A stretch of 64,000 nt of DNA, taken from Clostridia bacterium. GTDB taxonomy: Bacteria > Bacillota > Clostridia > Oscillospirales > Acutalibacteraceae. The position numbers and the translations under genes were made by a program. This document shows positions 54,769-64,000 of this stretch, in pieces; within the stretch, counting starts at the first letter, position 1, and each line of letters starts with the position of its first letter. Under the pieces are notes generated by a model that saw only the letters and a list, made by a program, of their open reading frames with translations, was not told the origin of the DNA and ran no database searches. The stretch covers positions 124,001 through 188,000 of the forward strand of contig JAFTLT010000009.1 of assembly GCA_017452785.1 (NCBI GenBank), given 5' to 3'.

Positions 54769-55890
54769 TTACCTCCACTCAAAATTATAAGTATCTAAGA
54801 TGTTTTTTATTGCGTTACCCTCAAGTAAAAACCTATATGGATTTTCTCTTGTTGGTATCGGTATAGCTTTAAATTCATTTACAAAGAATTTAAACAACTC
54901 TTTGTTTGCTGCATCTGCATATATATAACCGCCAAATCCGTTTTTTATTGATTCTTGTGCAGCAATCGCAAACAAGTGACCGCCAACCCCATTGTATTTT
55001 TTCATTGGATTGTTTTTGGTTATGCGATTATGTGGAGCTGCATTGCCCCAAAACATATATGTAGCATATGCGGCATCATCGTTTTTCAGAGCAATCAAGC
55101 CTTCAATTTCGTCACTACCTTTAACGCGTAGTGCAAAAACTTTGCTATCCTTAGGTGGATGATTCCAAGGAAAATCCCAACCATATTTTTCAGTACATTT
55201 AGATAATTTTCTAAAGTCAGTTATTTGTTCAACATCTGTATCGACAATTCTACCTGTACTATTTTCTTTTAAACAAGGAACAAGTTCATCTATGTCAATA
55301 CTGATTATACCACTTTCTGCCGAATTGTCAACCGATTTCTGCTTCCATTCAGCATAAGTCATATCACTTGGCACAGCGTAAGCCTTGCCGTCTTTATCCC
55401 TTGCAAACCTCTGACCAACACCCACCATATCTTCATAATACGGTGCAGTTGTACCTCTGCACCAGGGGTGAAAAGGCGGTGCTGTAGTGCCTGACTGCAT
55501 CTTGTTTACAGGGAAGACCTTGCCATCCATTTCACCGCACAACGGACAGGTGATATGGTCAAGTGTTTCAACAACCTCATATTCGTCTGCACCTAATTCT
55601 TTATAGCACTCTTTTTGTGATTCGGTGGCGAAGTGTGCACTTTCCGTCATAACGACACGGCCTGCGTTGCTTTTTGAGGTCTGAAGCTGTTTTGCAACTC
55701 TGTCAATGGTCTTTCTCGGTGCTTCACCTGTTGCTACCATTCGGGTGATTTCCTGATTAAGAACTTCAACGAGCTTCGCTTTATCAGTCCAACAACGTGC
55801 AATGAAAGTCTGATTATCCACAGTCCAAGGAGTATTCAGCACCTTTTCAAGTTTAACTCTGTCAATACTCTGCAGAGAGAAACCTACACT
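54769..55890 (-). pseudogene. Truncated phage MuF/SPP1-gp7 head protein with C-terminal GNAT-like domain
   Basis: The frame is open from an in-frame TGA at 55891-55893 to 54769; the first possible start is GTG 55842 (357 aa). The N-terminal ~150 residues match the C-terminal half of Mu-F/SPP1 gp7 minor head proteins: SIDRVKLEKVLNTPWT, QTSKSNAGRVVMTESAHF, then CPLCGEMDGKVFPV and PPFHPWCRGTTAPYYED. The remaining ~170 residues, after a linker, look like a GNAT acyltransferase: VFALRVKGSDEIEGLIAL, then the P-loop-like YNGVGGHLFAIAAQESI and GFGGYIYADAANKELFKFF. The head-protein N-terminus and all other phage genes are missing, so packaging function is lost, while the C-terminal domain could still be made. 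Confidence 0.75.
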
Positions 55891-55991: not shown

Positions 55992-56026
55992 AAAAAGGCC
56001 ACTGCAAAAACGCAGTAGCCTTTTTT
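55992..56026. terminator. Bidirectional terminator after the giant gene
   Basis: A stem of AAAAAGGC...GCCTTTTTT with an inner CACTGC/GCAGT pairing around AAAAAC is symmetrical. On the minus strand it ends the giant gene 15-16 bases after its stop. Confidence 0.85.
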
Positions 56027-56041
56027 CCATTTTTAACTCTA

Positions 56042-59000
56042 TTAGAAGAGGTTTTTGAAGAAGTCGGCAATCTTTCTGAACCATTCAGCGATTTTCTTGA
56101 AGAATGCGATAAATCCGTTAGGTGCAAGACCTTCTTCAGTATCCAAAACATCTTCAAATGTGTCAGAACCAAGGAGTTCATCAAGAAGCTCCCAAGCTGT
56201 GGGGCTCTTTGTCTTGAGCTTATCCATAGCCTTCTGCCATTCAGAGTTGAGGTCCTTGACGCCGTCAGCGGTTTCGCCAACACCGATGTCAGTGCCGTAG
56301 AAGAGGTAGTAAACTGTTGCCAATGCCTTATCCATGCCGAGATAAGTTTCAGTTGTGCATTCAGCTATGACATGAAGCACGCCTCTTACATATTTTTCAG
56401 CTTCTTCATTCATGCCGAGATAATCCTTGAGAAGACCGATAAACGTCTCTCTGTTATCCTCGGTCATAAGGAAGGTTATGAGCAGTCTCATTATGATAGT
56501 TACCATTTCAGCCTTTGCTGTTTCTGACTGATAAACCATCTTATAAGCTGTTTTTCCGTTTGCTGACTCATAGGAAACAAGTTTACCTACTGTAAGCTCA
56601 GCAATAGTGTTAAGGTCTATGCCTGTGAATTCATAGCCTGTGCTTTCCTTGATTGCTTCAATAGCATATTCAAAGAGGCTCTCGAAGGTTACTTCGTCAA
56701 GTCTTACACCAATGAGCTCATAAAGGTCAACTTCAACAAGAGGCTCAAGAGCACCAAGAAGAGTGTAAACTGCATTCAGTGCGTTCTTAAAGCAGGTGTC
56801 AAGTCCGTTTGAATTAATGAAATAGATGATTGCGGGAAGCATTTCAAGAATTTCATCAGCAGGCTGAGCCATAATTGCATCGAGTCTGTCAAACAGCGGA
56901 TTAAGAATTGCAGTAAGAAGTGCATTTTCATCAGCGTCTGCAGCGGCATAGTAAGCATCGGGAGTGAGAATATTTTCACAGCCGAGAACCTCAAGCAGGG
57001 GAATGATACCGTATGCATAGCCCTCTGCGCCAAGCAGTGTGATAAGGTCATTCTTTTCTTCGTCAGTAAAGAATGAGAAGTCTTCATTGCAAAGTGCCCA
57101 TTTAAGCACGGGGTAGATAGGAGTAATTATCTGACAAATTGTCTGAGTGAAGAGTGTACGGTCATCTTCAAACTGCGGGATAGACATTGTGCTCCATGCA
57201 TCAAGATCAACGCCGATTGAAGTCTTGATAAGAGCTTTAATATGCTGAGCACCGTCAAGAGCATTGATTTCATTTGTGAGTGAAAGCATTGCATCGAGAA
57301 TAGCCTGAGCATTTTTGCTGTTATAAAGTGAGCCGTTGATTGCAGTGTTCAGGAGCTCTTTGAGGCTATCAACAGTTATGCCGTCAATTTCAATGCCGAG
57401 AAGATAGATGATGTTATCGATGAATTCATCAATGTTATCAGCAATATACTGTGCCATTTCTTCTGTATAAAGAGGACCGTACTGGTGGTCTGCATAAAGC
57501 TCTGAGCTTTCCATAGCTGAGAAAGTGAAGTCTGTATCAGCCTTATCCTTATACATATAAGAGATTTCCTGCATATCAGCTTTTCTCAGATTGAGAATAT
57601 TGAGAATTGCTGTGTAAACATCTTCGCCAAAGAGAGATTTGATGTTTTCTTCGTTGTCACCGAGCTCGATAACCTGAATGAATACTGTGATAATCAGTGT
57701 GAGCATATCTTTTCTGTCAAGGTCACTGTTATAGCTCATCTTGTAAGCATATTCACCGCTGACTGACTGATATGTCTTTATTGTACCGACGCAAAGACCG
57801 CCGAACAGATCCTTAACGGGTGTGAGGTCAAGGTCAGTTGCTTCTTCAATAAGACCAACAAGTGCAACGAATGAAAGGTCGTTAAGATCAATGCCGATAA
57901 GGTCATTAATGTTAATTTCAGCACCAAGACCGCTGAGTGACTCAATAAGAGCATATGCTGCACTGAGTGTGTTGTAAAGTGAAGCTGTAAGACCGTCTGC
58001 ATTCAGGAAATAAATTACATTGGGAAGCACCTCAAGAATCTTGTTTGCCGGGTCTGAGAGTATATCATCAAGACGGGCAAATGCGGAATTGAGAATAAGC
58101 TCGGTAGCATTTACTTCTGTGCCGTCGGGAAGGTTTTCACAGCCGAGAGCTTCAAGCATGAGAGCTATGCCGTTCTTATAGCCTTCTGCACCTTTTATTG
58201 TGATGATGTCGTTGTAAACATATTCGCCGTTTTCGTCAACATCTGTGCCGGTGAAGAATGCGTAATCTTCGCCGAAGAGAAGCCAATTAACAATGCCGTC
58301 AACATAGCCGAGAATTTTAACAAGTTCAGCTGTGAATTCATCAGCTGAGTCAACACCTTCTGGAGCAACATAAGCATCAAGTGCTGCAAAGTCAACGCCG
58401 AGGATTGTGTCTGCTGCATTGAGAAGGGTCTTATCAATATCTTTAAGAAGATCTGAAATACCGTCAGCAATTGCCTGTGCGTTTTCAGTTGTGTAAATGT
58501 TTACACTGTCAGAGAGCATATCAGCAAGATTTGTATATTTCTCCTCGCTGATAAGTGTAACGATCTGTGAAACTATATCGTCAAGGTTGTCATTAAGATA
58601 TGCTGCACTGCTTTCTGTCCAGTTGTTGGGATAAGTAACAGCATAAATTGTGGGCTCAATATTAACGCCTGTGTCAAAGTCGTAATCAGTGAAGTCATGC
58701 TCCTCACCGAAGTAGTACATCCAGTCAACTGTCTTTGTTTCAGGGTCAGTGCCGTTGAATACTGCGAGAAGTGAAGCTGTGAAGTTCTCTGCGCCGATGA
58801 GTGCGTCAAATGCTTCTGCGTTTCCTTCTGCTTCGAGCATTTCGAGCATATAGCTGATAATAACAGTGATCATATCAGCTCTGTCAAATGTTCCTTCAGT
58901 GTAAGCACCCTTCTTACCCGTGCCGACAAATGCGCTTGCTGATGTATATTTGGTACCAATGATTGTGCATACATCATAAATAAGAGTCTTGAGTGCACTT

Positions 59001-62000
59001 AGGTTGAGTCCTGTTGCATTTTCAATAAGGCCGACGATTGTATCAACGCCAATGTTTTCAATATCGATTTCTACAGCTTCTTCGCCTTCTTCTGTTTCAG
59101 CGGCAGGAATAAGTGTCAAAAGGTCGATATTATAGATAGGACGAAGTGTATCGAATATTACATAGATAGGATGAAGAAGATTTCTGATTGTTGTTGAAAT
59201 TCCGTCACTTGCGATGTAATAAAGTGCGCCGGGAAGAATGTCAAGGATTTCATTTATAGGATCTGCAGCAAGCTTGTCAAGTCTGTCAATAAGTGAATAA
59301 ATAACAGCCTTGAGTGTATCTTCAGCAGCTAAGCTGTCAAAAGTTTCCTTTGACATAACATCACAGCCAAGTGCCTCAAGCAGAGGTACAATAGCGTTAT
59401 CATAGCCTTCGTTGCCATAGAATGTTACGAGATCATTACCATTAACATCGTTAAAGAGTGTGAGACTTTCATCTGAAAGCAGGAAGCCGTAAAGAGGAGC
59501 AAGAGGGGAGAGTACATCAAGGAGAGCATCGATAAATGCATCTGTGTCACCATCTTCAAAGCCCCAGTTTGTGTCGTCAGATATTTCAGCGTACTTTTGG
59601 AATTCGCTGAGGTCAACACCGAGCTCATTTTTAACTATGTCGATAATCTTGCTTTCAAGCTCTAATGAGCCGAGAGCCTTTGCAATTGCAGTTACATTTG
59701 CATTAGTGTAAATGCCGCTGATTGCCTTTGTTATTTCATCTGAAAGGTCAATTTCTGAGCCTGCAACTGTCATAATTGAGTTGATTATATCTGTGAGATT
59801 TTCGTCAACATAATCAGCTGTATCCTTTGTCCAGTTGTTTGTATGGCTAAGGTAAACAAGTGCTGCGGGGGTGATACCTTCAACTGTGCCGCCGACGCTA
59901 CCGTCATACCATGAGTAATCCTCAAGTGCATATTCTGTCTGATTGAGAAGCTCAATTATTGCAGCAATTGCAAGGTCGGGATTTGTGTAGATGTTTGTGA
60001 TAATATCCTTAAGCTCAGGTGTAAGCTCAGTTTCTGTGCCGTCTTCAGCCGGAACAAACATTGACATGAGAGTCTTTACAAATTCTTCATCACCAAGGCA
60101 TGAAACAAGGTAGTTAAGGAAAGCCATAAAGACATCTGCCTTGTCTGCCTCGAAGTTAATGCGCTTACCGTCTGTACGCTTTGTTGTTGCGTTTTTGTTG
60201 AGCTTTGCGTATGTTATAAACTCACCTGAGTTGAGAATGGGCATATCGTTTACATCAAGACCGGGCATAAATGATGAAAGAAGCATGCCGATAATTGAAC
60301 TGAAGGATGAAATATCAAAGTCGAGTTCAAGTGTGTCTTTTGTGAGGAATGTGTTGAATTCAATGGGATATGTATCCTGAATAACATTGATGCCGAGGTA
60401 AGTATCTTCAACAAGATAGTTAAGGTCAATGTTGAGCTTATCAATTAAATCCCAGAGCTTATCAAAGGGAATTGCATAAGCGAGATTCGGAAGAATGGAT
60501 GCTACTGTGTCAACGGGAGCATTAGCAAGCTTGTTTTCAACGAAATTAATAATCGGATTGAAAATTGCATCAACGAACTGTCTTGAAGTTGTGTAGCCCT
60601 TAACAGTATTGTAATTCTTGATATCGCTTGCGTTGCAGCCGATAGCCTCAAGGATGGGTACAACAACATTTGAGTAACCGGGACATCCGTTTGCTGTTAT
60701 GGTAAGGTCACCTTTGAGTGTAATTGGAAATTCGCCAAGGAAACCTAAATCAACGGTATAAGTTGCACCGCCTGCTTCTTCATAGAAAAGTTCAAGACTG
60801 TCATTGTCAGCCAAGAGTGCCTGAACCAAAGGAAGAATAGCGTCAAACGATTCAGCCATTGCACCAAGGAACTTACTCTTTTTAGCTGTCAGATAATCTG
60901 TGGTTGAAGCGTAGTTTTCAGGTACGATTGAATCTATACCCCAGTCAAGAGTGAGATTGCCGTCTTCGTCTTTAAGTGCATCCCAAGTAGATGCCTTTGA
61001 GAGCTGTGTTTTTGCTGTGCCGTAGCCCGATGCAATATAATCATCAACCTGATTGGGATAGATACCCAGGCCTAATCCTTTTACGATGTCTCTGAGAGGA
61101 TCATAGCTGATGTCAAGAGGTACAGTAACATCAACACCAACAAGGGTTGTTTCAAAATCATAATGAGGAGGAAGTGTGCTGTAAACATCCTCAAGGGCTC
61201 CTACGATTGCAGGATAAACAATGCCCATAAGCATATTAACAAAATCATTTGTATAGAAGTTTTCAGCCATAACTTCCTTGATGAAGTCGCTGAGGAGAAT
61301 ATTTCTGTCAGGATTCTGATCAATGTCAACAAGCTCGGTGAAATCATTGCTTGTAAGGAAATCGTCAAGCTTTTCAATTGTCTTGAGTACGATTTCTTCT
61401 GTTACGTCATAGTTTTCGCCTGCAACTCTTGCCTTGTCTTCATCAGTGGGATAGCGTGTAACAAACACACCGTTTTCATCGTGAAGGTGCTTCTGCTCAT
61501 GGTCTGCAAGTCCGTCTGATGCAATAAACTGATTATATTTAACAAGAATTGTTGAAAGCTTGTTATAGTTTGAACGAAGCTCACTTGAAATAATGGAGGG
61601 GTTATTCTTGTTTATGTAGTCCCAGATGTTTGTTTCAACTCTGCCGATTGCTTCTTTAACTGCAACAAAGTTTTCAAAGTTTACTTCGCCGAAAGCATCG
61701 TAGTAGCCAACTGCTGTATCAACCTCAGCAGTGAGTCTTGCAAGGATAACATCATAGAGTCTTGCAATATAATCATCTATAATATAGCCGAGTGCGTTTT
61801 CACCTTCGCCGAAGATGCTTTCCATTGTGTCAGCGCCGATAAGACCTGTGTACTTTGTATACATCGCATCAAAAGCATCGTCTTTCTTTTCTGCGTTGGG
61901 AAGGTTAGGTGTTGTTTCAGCTACACCCTCACCAATGAGTGTTTCTGTGTCGTACTGGGTAAGGTCATCATAAACAAGAGGAATGAACCACTCATAATAT

Positions 62001-63502
62001 GAGCCGTATTCAGCTTTAGCACCTCTCAGGTCGATTTCGTACTGAACTTCACTCTTGAAAACAGTGAGATAGGTTGTACCGTCTGTGAAAACTTCAGCAA
62101 TATTTTCCTGCTTGAAGTTTTTAAGTGCAGCAATGTAACCTGCGAGTTTACCGTTAAGAGCGGAGAGGTTAGCGTTATCGTTTATGTAGTTGCCGTCTGC
62201 ATCGGTGTCAATAAGTGCAATTGCTGCAGCATCGGGATACTGGGCACGCAGTGCATCAACAGCAGCTTTTATCTCTCTGAGTTTATAAAGCTCAATGTCT
62301 TTAGCAAGCTGAACCATAAATGCCTGTGAGTTGGTAAGTGAGAAATTATCATAGCCTGCAAAGTTATTGCCTACATATTCAAGAACCTCTGCTTCATAGG
62401 AATTAAGGTTATTAAGATGAGGTGCGCAGGTTGTGTAGATATTTTCCATTTCTTCAAGGTTATTTGTATCGTAACCTGCCTTCATTGCGTTGTTAAGCGC
62501 ATCGATAGCGGGCAGTGCGTTGATAACCTTCTGAGCGAAAAGACAGTTAGCCATAAATGTGTCAACAGCATCCATATCAAAGAAATGATTCTTTACATTT
62601 TGACTGTAGCTGTTGAGTTTTGCATAAGCAGTATTGTTAGCTGTGATAAGAGCACTGATTTCTGTTGCTGTCATTTTACTCAGTTGCTCAATTGTTTTGT
62701 TAACATTGCCGCTTTTAATAAAGTGGTCATTGAAAGCGTGGAGATTTTTGTAGGCAGCTGTATCTTTCGAGTTAACCGTCCTTGAAATACCGGTCAGATA
62801 ATGCCATGAGCAGGTCAGCCAATCCCATCTTCTTTGAGGGTTCCAAAATGAACCGCTATCAGTGCTTTTTTTCTCATAACCATTTTCATAGGAATGGGTA
62901 TAAGTGTATGTAACTTTGAGCAATATTTCTGATGGCACCTCTGAAAGATTTAATCTTAATAAGATGTTTTCGAGGTTGGCACTTACTGATTTGGTTACAG
63001 TTTTTCCTGATGTAACCTTATATGACAACTTTCCGGTATCAAAGTCCCATACAGATACACGATGACCACTGTAATAACCGGTCTTCAAGCTTGAAGATGT
63101 CTTATACTGTGAGTCATCAACAACACCACTTGTCGGCAATAAAGCGTCAATAAGTGTGTTATAGGATGAACCGACGGCACTCTTCGCACTGCTGTTCAAA
63201 TCACGAACCGAGTTGTTGGAGTAAGTAGTAACCGAATAGTTGTGATAATCGTTACTTGTGTCAGTAGCAGTGTTCTTACTCCATCTTGTGCTAATCCAAT
63301 CATACAATGCATCAGCAGCATTTAATAATGTTCCGTCACCGCTTGTTAGATTAGTTGTGTTTGTGATAGCTTGAAAAGCTGATTTCAGTTGTGTGTTGTT
63401 TGTTGCTGCATGTGCTGTTATGGGCGCAAAGCACACGTTAACACAACTGACAAGTATGAGCATAGTTAAAATTACGCTCAAGGTTTTCTTGCAAAGTTTC
63501 AT
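56042..63502 (-). CDS. Giant secreted repeat protein, 2486 aa, unknown family
   Basis: The N-terminus MKLCKKTLSVILTMLILVSC with a following AHA-A cleavage site is a signal peptide (cut near residue 33); an LVSC sequence could also read as a lipobox. Residues ~34-330 form a Tyr/Trp/Ser-rich domain (WDWLTCSWHYLTG). Residues ~330-890 are helical and Asn/Asp/Ala-rich. From ~890 to ~2300 there are four degenerate modules of about 387-424 residues, each with a GY-x3-I-x2-LLEALGC block (conserved Cys 956, 1380, 1788, 2175) and an ILxxLPxxIYFxxxDGL block. The C-terminus is an amphipathic helix, IAEWFRKIADFFKNLF. No LPxTG, SLH or known catalytic motif is visible. AAGGAGG precedes the ATG. I do not recognise the family; a surface or matrix protein is inferred. 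Confidence 0.9.
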   Translation of the reverse strand: MKLCKKTLSVILTMLILVSCVNVCFAPITAHAATNNTQLKSAFQAITNTTNLTSGDGTLLNAADALYDWISTRWSKNTATDTSNDYHNYSVTTYSNNSVRDLNSSAKSAVGSSYNTLIDALLPTSGVVDDSQYKTSSSLKTGYYSGHRVSVWDFDTGKLSYKVTSGKTVTKSVSANLENILLRLNLSEVPSEILLKVTYTYTHSYENGYEKKSTDSGSFWNPQRRWDWLTCSWHYLTGISRTVNSKDTAAYKNLHAFNDHFIKSGNVNKTIEQLSKMTATEISALITANNTAYAKLNSYSQNVKNHFFDMDAVDTFMANCLFAQKVINALPAIDALNNAMKAGYDTNNLEEMENIYTTCAPHLNNLNSYEAEVLEYVGNNFAGYDNFSLTNSQAFMVQLAKDIELYKLREIKAAVDALRAQYPDAAAIALIDTDADGNYINDNANLSALNGKLAGYIAALKNFKQENIAEVFTDGTTYLTVFKSEVQYEIDLRGAKAEYGSYYEWFIPLVYDDLTQYDTETLIGEGVAETTPNLPNAEKKDDAFDAMYTKYTGLIGADTMESIFGEGENALGYIIDDYIARLYDVILARLTAEVDTAVGYYDAFGEVNFENFVAVKEAIGRVETNIWDYINKNNPSIISSELRSNYNKLSTILVKYNQFIASDGLADHEQKHLHDENGVFVTRYPTDEDKARVAGENYDVTEEIVLKTIEKLDDFLTSNDFTELVDIDQNPDRNILLSDFIKEVMAENFYTNDFVNMLMGIVYPAIVGALEDVYSTLPPHYDFETTLVGVDVTVPLDISYDPLRDIVKGLGLGIYPNQVDDYIASGYGTAKTQLSKASTWDALKDEDGNLTLDWGIDSIVPENYASTTDYLTAKKSKFLGAMAESFDAILPLVQALLADNDSLELFYEEAGGATYTVDLGFLGEFPITLKGDLTITANGCPGYSNVVVPILEAIGCNASDIKNYNTVKGYTTSRQFVDAIFNPIINFVENKLANAPVDTVASILPNLAYAIPFDKLWDLIDKLNIDLNYLVEDTYLGINVIQDTYPIEFNTFLTKDTLELDFDISSFSSIIGMLLSSFMPGLDVNDMPILNSGEFITYAKLNKNATTKRTDGKRINFEADKADVFMAFLNYLVSCLGDEEFVKTLMSMFVPAEDGTETELTPELKDIITNIYTNPDLAIAAIIELLNQTEYALEDYSWYDGSVGGTVEGITPAALVYLSHTNNWTKDTADYVDENLTDIINSIMTVAGSEIDLSDEITKAISGIYTNANVTAIAKALGSLELESKIIDIVKNELGVDLSEFQKYAEISDDTNWGFEDGDTDAFIDALLDVLSPLAPLYGFLLSDESLTLFNDVNGNDLVTFYGNEGYDNAIVPLLEALGCDVMSKETFDSLAAEDTLKAVIYSLIDRLDKLAADPINEILDILPGALYYIASDGISTTIRNLLHPIYVIFDTLRPIYNIDLLTLIPAAETEEGEEAVEIDIENIGVDTIVGLIENATGLNLSALKTLIYDVCTIIGTKYTSASAFVGTGKKGAYTEGTFDRADMITVIISYMLEMLEAEGNAEAFDALIGAENFTASLLAVFNGTDPETKTVDWMYYFGEEHDFTDYDFDTGVNIEPTIYAVTYPNNWTESSAAYLNDNLDDIVSQIVTLISEEKYTNLADMLSDSVNIYTTENAQAIADGISDLLKDIDKTLLNAADTILGVDFAALDAYVAPEGVDSADEFTAELVKILGYVDGIVNWLLFGEDYAFFTGTDVDENGEYVYNDIITIKGAEGYKNGIALMLEALGCENLPDGTEVNATELILNSAFARLDDILSDPANKILEVLPNVIYFLNADGLTASLYNTLSAAYALIESLSGLGAEININDLIGIDLNDLSFVALVGLIEEATDLDLTPVKDLFGGLCVGTIKTYQSVSGEYAYKMSYNSDLDRKDMLTLIITVFIQVIELGDNEENIKSLFGEDVYTAILNILNLRKADMQEISYMYKDKADTDFTFSAMESSELYADHQYGPLYTEEMAQYIADNIDEFIDNIIYLLGIEIDGITVDSLKELLNTAINGSLYNSKNAQAILDAMLSLTNEINALDGAQHIKALIKTSIGVDLDAWSTMSIPQFEDDRTLFTQTICQIITPIYPVLKWALCNEDFSFFTDEEKNDLITLLGAEGYAYGIIPLLEVLGCENILTPDAYYAAADADENALLTAILNPLFDRLDAIMAQPADEILEMLPAIIYFINSNGLDTCFKNALNAVYTLLGALEPLVEVDLYELIGVRLDEVTFESLFEYAIEAIKESTGYEFTGIDLNTIAELTVGKLVSYESANGKTAYKMVYQSETAKAEMVTIIMRLLITFLMTEDNRETFIGLLKDYLGMNEEAEKYVRGVLHVIAECTTETYLGMDKALATVYYLFYGTDIGVGETADGVKDLNSEWQKAMDKLKTKSPTAWELLDELLGSDTFEDVLDTEEGLAPNGFIAFFKKIAEWFRKIADFFKNLF
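56500..60860 (-). repeat. Four tandem degenerate modules inside the giant gene
   Basis: Anchor blocks with the form G-x-E/P-G-Y-x2-x-I-x-P-x-LEALGC lie at 60626-60687, 59359-59416, 58133-58193 and 56965-57031. The Cys codons are 1272, 1224 and 1161 bases apart (424, 408 and 387 codons). Each module continues with a D-x-LxDxLPxxIYF block, a DLxxLIGxxL block, a RxDMxTxIIxxxLxxLE block and an IYTxxNAQAIxDxL block. The modules are diverged at DNA level, implying an old duplication. Confidence 0.8.
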
Positions 63503-63611
63503 AATAGAACCTCCTTAAATTTTGAAGTTATTTCGAGTAAACAAAAAGTCAATTGGCAATAAAGTAAAAACCAAATTTCCATAAACTCAAAATAAACTTT
63601 CAATTATATGT

Positions 63612-63640
63612 AGTATAACATATTAATAAAAAATTTACAA
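63612..63640 (-). promoter_or_regulatory. Promoter of the giant gene
   Basis: On the minus strand TTGTAA (63640-63635) and TATACT (63617-63612) are 17 bases apart, about 110 bases before the start. The leader between them and the gene is A+T-rich, with no clear structure. Confidence 0.68.
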
Positions 63641-63714: not shown

Positions 63715-63737
63715 AGAACACGCTCTGAACGTGTTCT
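63715..63737 (-). terminator. Hairpin after the sigma factor gene
   Basis: An 8-bp perfect stem, AGAACACG with CGTGTTCT, with a 7-base loop, lies just after the sigma gene; the tail TAATTTG is only moderately U-rich. Confidence 0.65.
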
Positions 63738-63746
63738 ATAAATAGA

Positions 63747-64000
63747 TTATATAATTATTTTCTGATGACTTTTGATTTTTTCAAGTGCACCCTTTTCGAG
63801 TCTTGATACCTGTGCCTGTGAAATGCCTATTTCTTTTGCAACCTCTGTCTGAGTCAATCCGTTCATAAACCTGAGTGAAAGAATGGTCTTTTCTCTTTCT
63901 CCTAAATCGTTTATCGCTTTTTTCAGCAGAATTTCATCTATCCAGTTTACATCAGAGTTGCTGTCACCTATCTGATCCATAACATAAATTGTGTCGCCTG
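63747..64000 (-). CDS. sigG: Sporulation sigma factor, SigG-like, 5' partial
   Basis: The last ~84 residues of a sigma-70 family factor are visible; the frame stays open to the window edge (GDTIYVMDQIGDS precedes the first internal Met). Region 4 is complete: LGEREKTILSLRFMNGLTQTEVAKEIGISQAQVSRLEKGALEKI. The combination of DxIYVMDQI, the TQTEVAKEIGISQAQVSRLEK recognition helix and the short C-terminus matches SigG, the late forespore factor, more closely than SigF or SigB. SigF is the main alternative. It supports an endospore-forming host. Confidence 0.85.
   Translation of the reverse strand, partial: GDTIYVMDQIGDSNSDVNWIDEILLKKAINDLGEREKTILSLRFMNGLTQTEVAKEIGISQAQVSRLEKGALEKIKSHQKIII

Follow-up and report, generated by a model that had tools for sequence, protein, structure and literature searches.

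A putative surface-displayed helical stalk and a shared C-terminal tail in a lineage of gut Clostridia

A single gene in the window (the whole 64,000-nucleotide stretch of DNA analyzed here) encodes a protein of 2486 amino acids, which raises the question of what a cell would do with so large a product and where it would keep it. Judging from its sequence, we consider it an even call whether the protein is a surface-displayed helical stalk of adjustable length. The gene lies on the minus strand at window positions 56042–63502, where the initial annotation had placed it, and is intact, with an ATG start and 2486 codons. Its parts and immediate surroundings are as follows.

56042..63502, minus strand: gene for the 2486-aa modular protein, predicted to be exported (reading frame; pN/pS against the G009 orthologue)
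63404..63502, minus strand: signal peptide, residues 1–33, cleavage site approximate (hydrophobicity scan; similar N-terminus in orthologues)
61136..63403, minus strand: N-terminal head, residues 34–789 (orthologue identities; homologous heads in long members)
59834..61135, minus strand: module 1, strongly diverged, residues 790–1223, Cys 956 (46 bits, compared with 4.6 for the best of 200 shuffles)
58622..59833, minus strand: module 2, first type, residues 1224–1627, Cys 1380 (HMM match; clade of its own)
57470..58621, minus strand: module 3, internal type, residues 1628–2011, Cys 1788 (HMM match; internal clade, 1–3 copies per protein)
56303..57469, minus strand: module 4, last type, residues 2012–2400, Cys 2175 (orthologue identity; clade support 100/100)
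56120..56302, minus strand: variable linker, residues 2401–2461 (30–48% identity in orthologues)
56045..56119, minus strand: C-terminal amphipathic aromatic helix, residues 2462–2486, NGFIAFFKKIAEWFRKIADFFKNLF (helical moment; shared tail)
63510..63515, minus strand: AGGAGG ribosome-binding site preceding the ATG (read from the sequence)
63612..63640, minus strand: sigma-A-like promoter match, TTGTAA-17-TATACT with TG before the second hexamer (9/12 consensus match only)
63715..63737, minus strand: terminator-like hairpin between sigG and the 2486-aa gene (sequence scan)
56001..56016, listed on the plus strand: terminator-like hairpin just past the 2486-aa gene (sequence scan)

Orthologues of about equal length and 54% to 62% identity were found in 3 related genomes (G009, G017, and G026), and partial orthologues with 61% identity in 2 more (G022 and G024), both on cut contigs. 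Two of the relatives are Clostridia metagenome-assembled genomes, one of them from goat cecum. A codon comparison with the G009 orthologue gave a pS of 0.78 and a pN of 0.25. Given these values and the similar lengths of the orthologues, we count the gene as maintained; on this comparison, it is under purifying selection. The gene stands alone, and its neighbors differ in all 4 genomes compared, as read by eye from the ORF lists. A promoter and terminator of its own, as initially annotated, are plausible: the upstream region contains 9 promoter-like matches, compared with 4.7 ± 2.0 in shuffles, and 3 terminator-like matches, compared with 0.8 ± 0.9. The hairpin past the end of the gene may act in both directions.

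The 4 diverged modules of about 400 residues described initially were borne out by profile searches. Three clear copies of about 390 residues (residues 1224–1627, 1628–2011, and 2012 to approximately 2400) are accompanied by one strongly diverged copy within residues 790–1223. Modules 2, 3, and 4, each compared with an HMM of the other two, scored 165, 179, and 194 bits, and module 1 scored 46 bits against an HMM of modules 2 to 4, while the best of 200 shuffles was at most 7.4 bits in each case. Against module 3 alone, module 1 remained at shuffle level (6.8 and 7.4 bits, compared with 6.8 and 6.2). The internal similarity is thus significant by HMM, but it is absent from a plain BLASTP self-comparison, which returned the full self-match only and no internal repeats; profile methods were therefore needed to detect the modules.

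In an alignment of 60 module copies out of 12 family frames, the most conserved positions were a G-x-x-G-Y block, a P-x-L-E-A-L-G block, another proline, an L-P pair, and a tyrosine. The 4 cysteines that had been singled out as invariant (residues 956, 1380, 1788, and 2175) are all present, but the column is not invariant across the family, as it holds cysteine in 32 of at least 54 copies and isoleucine, valine, alanine, leucine, or methionine in 22. This substitution pattern suggests a buried rather than a catalytic position, and neither a catalytic nor a disulfide role is favored for it. Likewise, the LPxxIYF block thought to be shared by all modules is intact in module 3 (residue 1826) and module 4 (residue 2222), but degenerate in module 1 (LPNLAYA, residue 1004) and module 2 (LPGALYY, residue 1423). 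That the modules are helical, as first annotated, is probable from hydrophobic periodicity, the one and rather weak line of evidence for it: helix-like windows numbered 201 of 370, exceeding the best of 200 shuffles (178), and strand-like windows numbered 56, below the lowest shuffle (64), but the spectrum of the whole module has its peak at 110 degrees, with a low value at 100.

No known domain was found in the libraries searched. The 2486-aa protein had no family match in Pfam or NCBIfam at E ≤ 1, nor any curated wall-binding domain in these searches, and the whole protein had no match among PDB sequences at E ≤ 1. The module profile matched only 2 dihydrodipicolinate synthase sequences in the PDB (E 0.11 over 66 positions), which we took as chance. 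The module family is thus undescribed in Pfam, NCBIfam, and PDB sequences; large modular surface proteins are themselves a known kind. In the literature, the titles and opening parts of abstracts among the papers listed contained no description of the tail or of the module, which is not proof of absence, and the terms “amphipathic,” “amphiphilic,” and “hydrophobic tail” were not found in the available part of a review of Gram-positive surface display (PMC5817068).

Searches of mobile elements gave no credible match either. The best hit in PHROGs had an E-value of 0.055, one module found nothing in a phage collection, the module alignment matched 98 stretches of viral contigs by pattern with none confirmed, and both one module and the whole protein had no match among plasmids. 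A 357-aa frame adjoining the giant gene (window 54769–55842, minus strand) matches the phage SPP1 gp7/Mu F minor capsid domain and is a possible prophage remnant, and the G009 orthologue is flanked by phage-like genes, as judged by eye. A role as phage structural protein or cargo was nevertheless rejected, as the family is genus-wide and absent from the phage records searched; the phage-like neighbors look coincidental.

Members of the module family were detected in all 35 genomes of the genus and in 1 of 25 other genomes in that sample. Within the taxonomic family, 44 of 300 genomes and 19 of 135 genera had a module match. Only 3 of 295 genomes in the order did so, including the own genome and another of the same taxonomic family, and only 2 of 299 in the phylum, again including the own genome, the other having one weak match over 74 positions. 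Based on the counts for order and phylum, the module family is, as far as sequence searches reach, restricted to this lineage and rare elsewhere. This survey rests on genome searches; a scan of genome contigs gave only 2 loci.

The survey of relatives also showed that module number varies widely between family members. Two further members are encoded in the own genome (G000): C21, a paralogue of 3029 aa, and C27, a membrane-anchored protein of 873 aa with 2 module matches. Member lengths range from about 870 to more than 9000 residues, and frames reach 11,501 codons in the genus. One single frame of 9354 codons (G017:C12, 143502–171566, minus strand; loci L033 and L105), which was read through, carries a signal peptide, 16 module matches, and the tail. 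In a tree of the 29 copies scoring over 95 bits, of 58 listed, the first, internal, and last modules of long members formed separate clades, and small, giant, and out-of-genus copies branched elsewhere; 8 of its 26 inner branches were weakly supported. The number of internal copies is 1 in the 2486-aa protein, 2 in the 3029-aa paralogue, and 3 in the long member of G027.

The ends of the protein carry the remaining evidence for its placement in the cell. The N-terminus is the sole part with 19-mers above the transmembrane-like threshold in a hydrophobicity scan, and the orthologues have similar N-termini, which supports the signal peptide initially annotated; export is predicted by this hydrophobicity heuristic only. 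Behind it, residues 34–260 are 53%, 52%, and 35% identical in the orthologues of G009, G017, and G026, and form on average the most variable large region, with the exception of G017, in which residues 261–480 are as variable (50%, compared with 52%). Identity is 64%, 64%, and 60% over residues 481–789, and module 4 is the most conserved large region (70%, 67%, and 62%). The N-terminal domain had been called unique, which it is not: homologous heads are common to other long family members, namely, the 3029-aa paralogue, the G027 member, and, more weakly, a member of G001. From the conserved last module, the varying number of internal copies, and the variable residues 34–260, we infer a stalk whose base is conserved, whose shaft can be adjusted, and whose tip is exposed.

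At the other end, only one of the protein's 2469 windows exceeds the last 18-mer of the tail in helical moment. The tail does not qualify as a classical membrane span, as the hydrophobicity scan found no transmembrane-like 19-mer at the C-terminus. Its consensus reads I-x-x-F-F-x-[KR]-I-x-x-[FW]-F-K-N-L-F. With a first, narrower tail profile, for which matches were listed up to E 1, 24 of 30 loci fell no more than 10 residues from a stop; with a second profile, this held for all 30 best-match loci, and all 8 of these 30 proteins with a visible N-terminus have a signal peptide. The tail profile was built from 14 ends, all from the genus, and is blind to more distant tails. It matched 34 of the 35 genus genomes at E ≤ 0.001, counting the module proteins themselves, 1 of which is the sole match in G011. 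The genome without a match at this threshold is G027, yet the C-terminus of its long member is a related helix.

The tail also occurs on proteins unrelated to the module family. Among 10 tailed proteins from G020, G017, and G009 scanned by Pfam, 7 had a domain over cut-off (a papain-family protease with a lectin domain, CotH, GH2, GDPD, Cthe_2159, and two of BspA-type LRR) and 3 had none. Export was assigned to 8 of the 10 by eye or heuristic, all but the L115 protein, which is cut at its N-terminus, and the L109 protein. These 2 are the GH2-type enzyme (L115 2–6715, plus strand; a 2238-aa frame cut N-terminally by the contig end) and the papain-lectin protease (L109 5792–7927, minus strand), and the tail may hold such degradative enzymes on the surface. 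In a sample from the own genome, the tail was found on 4 of 34 secreted, 1 of 67 membrane-type, and none of 156 soluble proteins, a small and partly biased enrichment, since 2 of the 4 secreted proteins (the 2486-aa protein and that of L104) and the membrane-type one (C21) came from stretches chosen for their matches; the sample also missed a tailed 1266-aa frame crossing a stretch boundary. An alpha/beta-hydrolase-like protein (by eye) encoded next to the 3029-aa paralogue (L026 4829–5752, minus strand) has the same kind of helix at its start rather than its end (MWEKIVAFFMSIIAFFTSLFGFGG), and the tail profiles match it at this N-terminus.

Within the taxonomic family, 18 of 150 genomes, representing 14 of 135 genera, had a tail match. 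Of 9 loci checked, 8 had it at the C-terminus and one, L189, had it internally; G036 and G181 have modules without a tail match in this search. Among 117 genomes of the order, E ≤ 0.001 was reached only by the own genome and by G049, the latter with an internal match. Outside the taxonomic family, where matches are mostly background, 3 of 13 loci with matches up to E 0.01 (L123, L133, and L134) have the match 10 aa or less from the stop. Two signal-peptide proteins from outside the taxonomic family (L120 in G149 and L134 in G474) have a similar end helix 11 and 3 aa from the stop. As these look like real tails, the tail may be used sporadically elsewhere, and it is concentrated in this lineage rather than proven exclusive to it. 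Ten of the 14 tail genera also had modules, compared with 19 of 135 overall (Fisher p 2e-7), an overlap that is partly circular because module proteins carry tails, and that compares 2 samples of different size.

Gram-positive LPXTG-anchored multi-domain adhesins are large modular stalk or adhesin proteins. Like these, the 2486-aa protein has a signal peptide, a variable head, tandem modules of varying number, and a putative C-terminal attachment element. Unlike these, its modules are about 390 aa long, probably helical, and without a Pfam match, and attachment would be by an amphipathic helix instead of LPXTG. An LPXTG-like motif with a hydrophobic span and a basic tail was not found at its C-terminus. 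The only candidate, LAPNG at the junction of linker and helix, was rejected as not conserved, since it reads IAPNG, LASGG, or LASNG in orthologues. At the same end, as recognized by eye, small module members have a transmembrane helix and a basic tail, and 2 homologues have sortase-type signals (G036:C14, VDTGD...RKKKEK; G731:C2, VPTGD...RKKKHA; loci L088 and L199); in the 2486-aa protein and in its long relatives, the amphipathic helix takes this place. The strongest argument that the tail is probably an anchor is this replacement among homologous module proteins. The earlier view that no anchoring domain is present is probably wrong, as the last 25 residues are a helix found on unrelated proteins and exchanged for transmembrane or sortase-type ends in homologues.

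Several other explanations bear on the same data. Small membrane-anchored members (847–886 aa) adjoin a gene for a fused ABC-ATPase/FtsX-type permease of about 911–928 residues in 12 of 15 loci from 3 genera (8 of 9 in one set and 4 of 6 in another), at a distance of within about 15 bases in 11 loci and about 350 in one; these 15 loci were chosen by frame length rather than at random, and the ABC neighbor was identified by Pfam for L027, by phmmer in the six-locus set, and, for the remaining loci of the nine-locus set, by motif and length. According to the available parts of the respective papers, the mechanotransmitter FtsX works with PcsB, EnvC binds FtsX (PMC6355983, PMC7668044), and MacB-type proteins act in lipoprotein trafficking and sensing (PMC5985334). 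The module could thus be the extracellular partner of a MacB/FtsX-type ABC protein, relaying force or handling a surface polymer, a peptide, or tailed proteins, with the long and giant members as further partners or substrates. As with FtsEX and EnvC/PcsB, a membrane-anchored module protein is encoded beside the ABC protein, but here the partner belongs to an undescribed family, and the 2486-aa protein is not linked, as its gene has no ABC-type neighbor. Moreover, the ABC protein is widespread in the order, with matches, some of them partial, in 40 of 59 genomes (the own among them), and no module gene lay beside it in 11 loci outside the genus (flanks of up to 1.5 kb, at least 2 of them cut by contig ends). 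The one small ABC-linked module protein scanned had no Pfam hydrolase domain. We consider envelope machinery an unlikely explanation of the 2486-aa protein; as the small anchored member is genetically tied to the ABC protein, the module may also bind MacB/FtsX-type machinery.

Alternatively, the protein might be released, its tail being removed or only loosely membrane-active, as in a comparison with phenol-soluble modulins, and its modules might form an extracellular matrix or biofilm. The amphipathic rather than membrane-spanning tail without an LPXTG-type end would allow this, and the giant members would suit a matrix, but we judge it unlikely, given the ends that homologues have in place of the tail and the enzymes and binding proteins carrying it, which would gain from retention. 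The tail could also act in processing or secretion, as a C-terminal sorting signal recognized by a dedicated enzyme that would process the proteins and then move them to the wall or out of the cell, a possibility that we judge quite unlikely and that can overlap with the stalk. A short homology that follows a variable linker at the very C-terminus of unrelated exported proteins of one lineage resembles PEP-CTERM and GlyGly-CTERM, as described in the available parts of 2 papers (PMC1569441, PMC3237569), and all 35 genus genomes encode a sortase-domain protein (PF04203 over cut-off). In contrast to those systems, the tail of the 2486-aa protein shows no transmembrane span, no invariant PEP or GG motif, and no known partner enzyme; no invariant motif precedes the helix across unrelated carriers, no CTERM model of NCBIfam matched the 10 tailed proteins at E ≤ 0.001, and the sortase-domain protein of the own genome shows, by eye, no sign of a special role. 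That protein, the only sortase-domain match of the own genome (L181 4704–6455, plus strand), is 583 aa in length and has a long N-terminal region rich in proline and glutamine; such frames are about 490–730 aa long in most genus genomes, G029 excepted. Finally, we regard a role in the spore coat, as initially suggested, or in the exosporium, with production late in sporulation, as highly improbable. The idea is unsupported beyond the adjacency of sigG, which lies directly upstream (window 63747–64000, continuing in L028 7748–8536, minus strand; NF006071 above cut-off, TIGR02850 below its own cut-off), and a module gene of G036 has another sigG at a distance of about 2 kb (L083). However, reading the ORF lists by eye showed no sigma factor beside the orthologues in G009, G017, and G026, a terminator-like hairpin and a sigma-A-like match separate sigG from the gene, and the export signal and tail also argue against it.

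We therefore prefer the surface-tethered stalk. Sec would export the 2486-aa protein, and the C-terminal amphipathic helix would hold it at the outer face of the membrane, with the last and most conserved module nearest the membrane. The internal module or modules would serve as length-setting spacers in a rod-shaped shaft, and the variable N-terminal head would project into the gut milieu, where it would probably serve in attachment or binding. The new surface-type family proposed initially is partly supported, fitting the lack of a known domain, the export signal, and the varying module number, while we infer its anchoring, fold, and function.

More broadly, and more tentatively, the tail may be this lineage's own surface-retention code, used on many unrelated exoproteins, with helical-module stalks of more than 10,000 codons as its top users and small relatives coupling to a MacB/FtsX-type ABC mechanotransmitter. 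The pairing of small members with the ABC gene offers a testable link to MacB/FtsX mechanotransmission. Very long frames of these genomes belong to the module family, although Pfam, NCBIfam, and PDB sequences gave no match for it. What specialists would find surprising is the lineage-wide tail with its putative anchoring role. If it does anchor, it would provide gut Clostridia known here as metagenome assemblies with a simple, transplantable means of retaining enzymes and binding proteins at the surface, and annotators could tell surface-held from released proteins, such as the GH2 enzyme and the papain-type protease.
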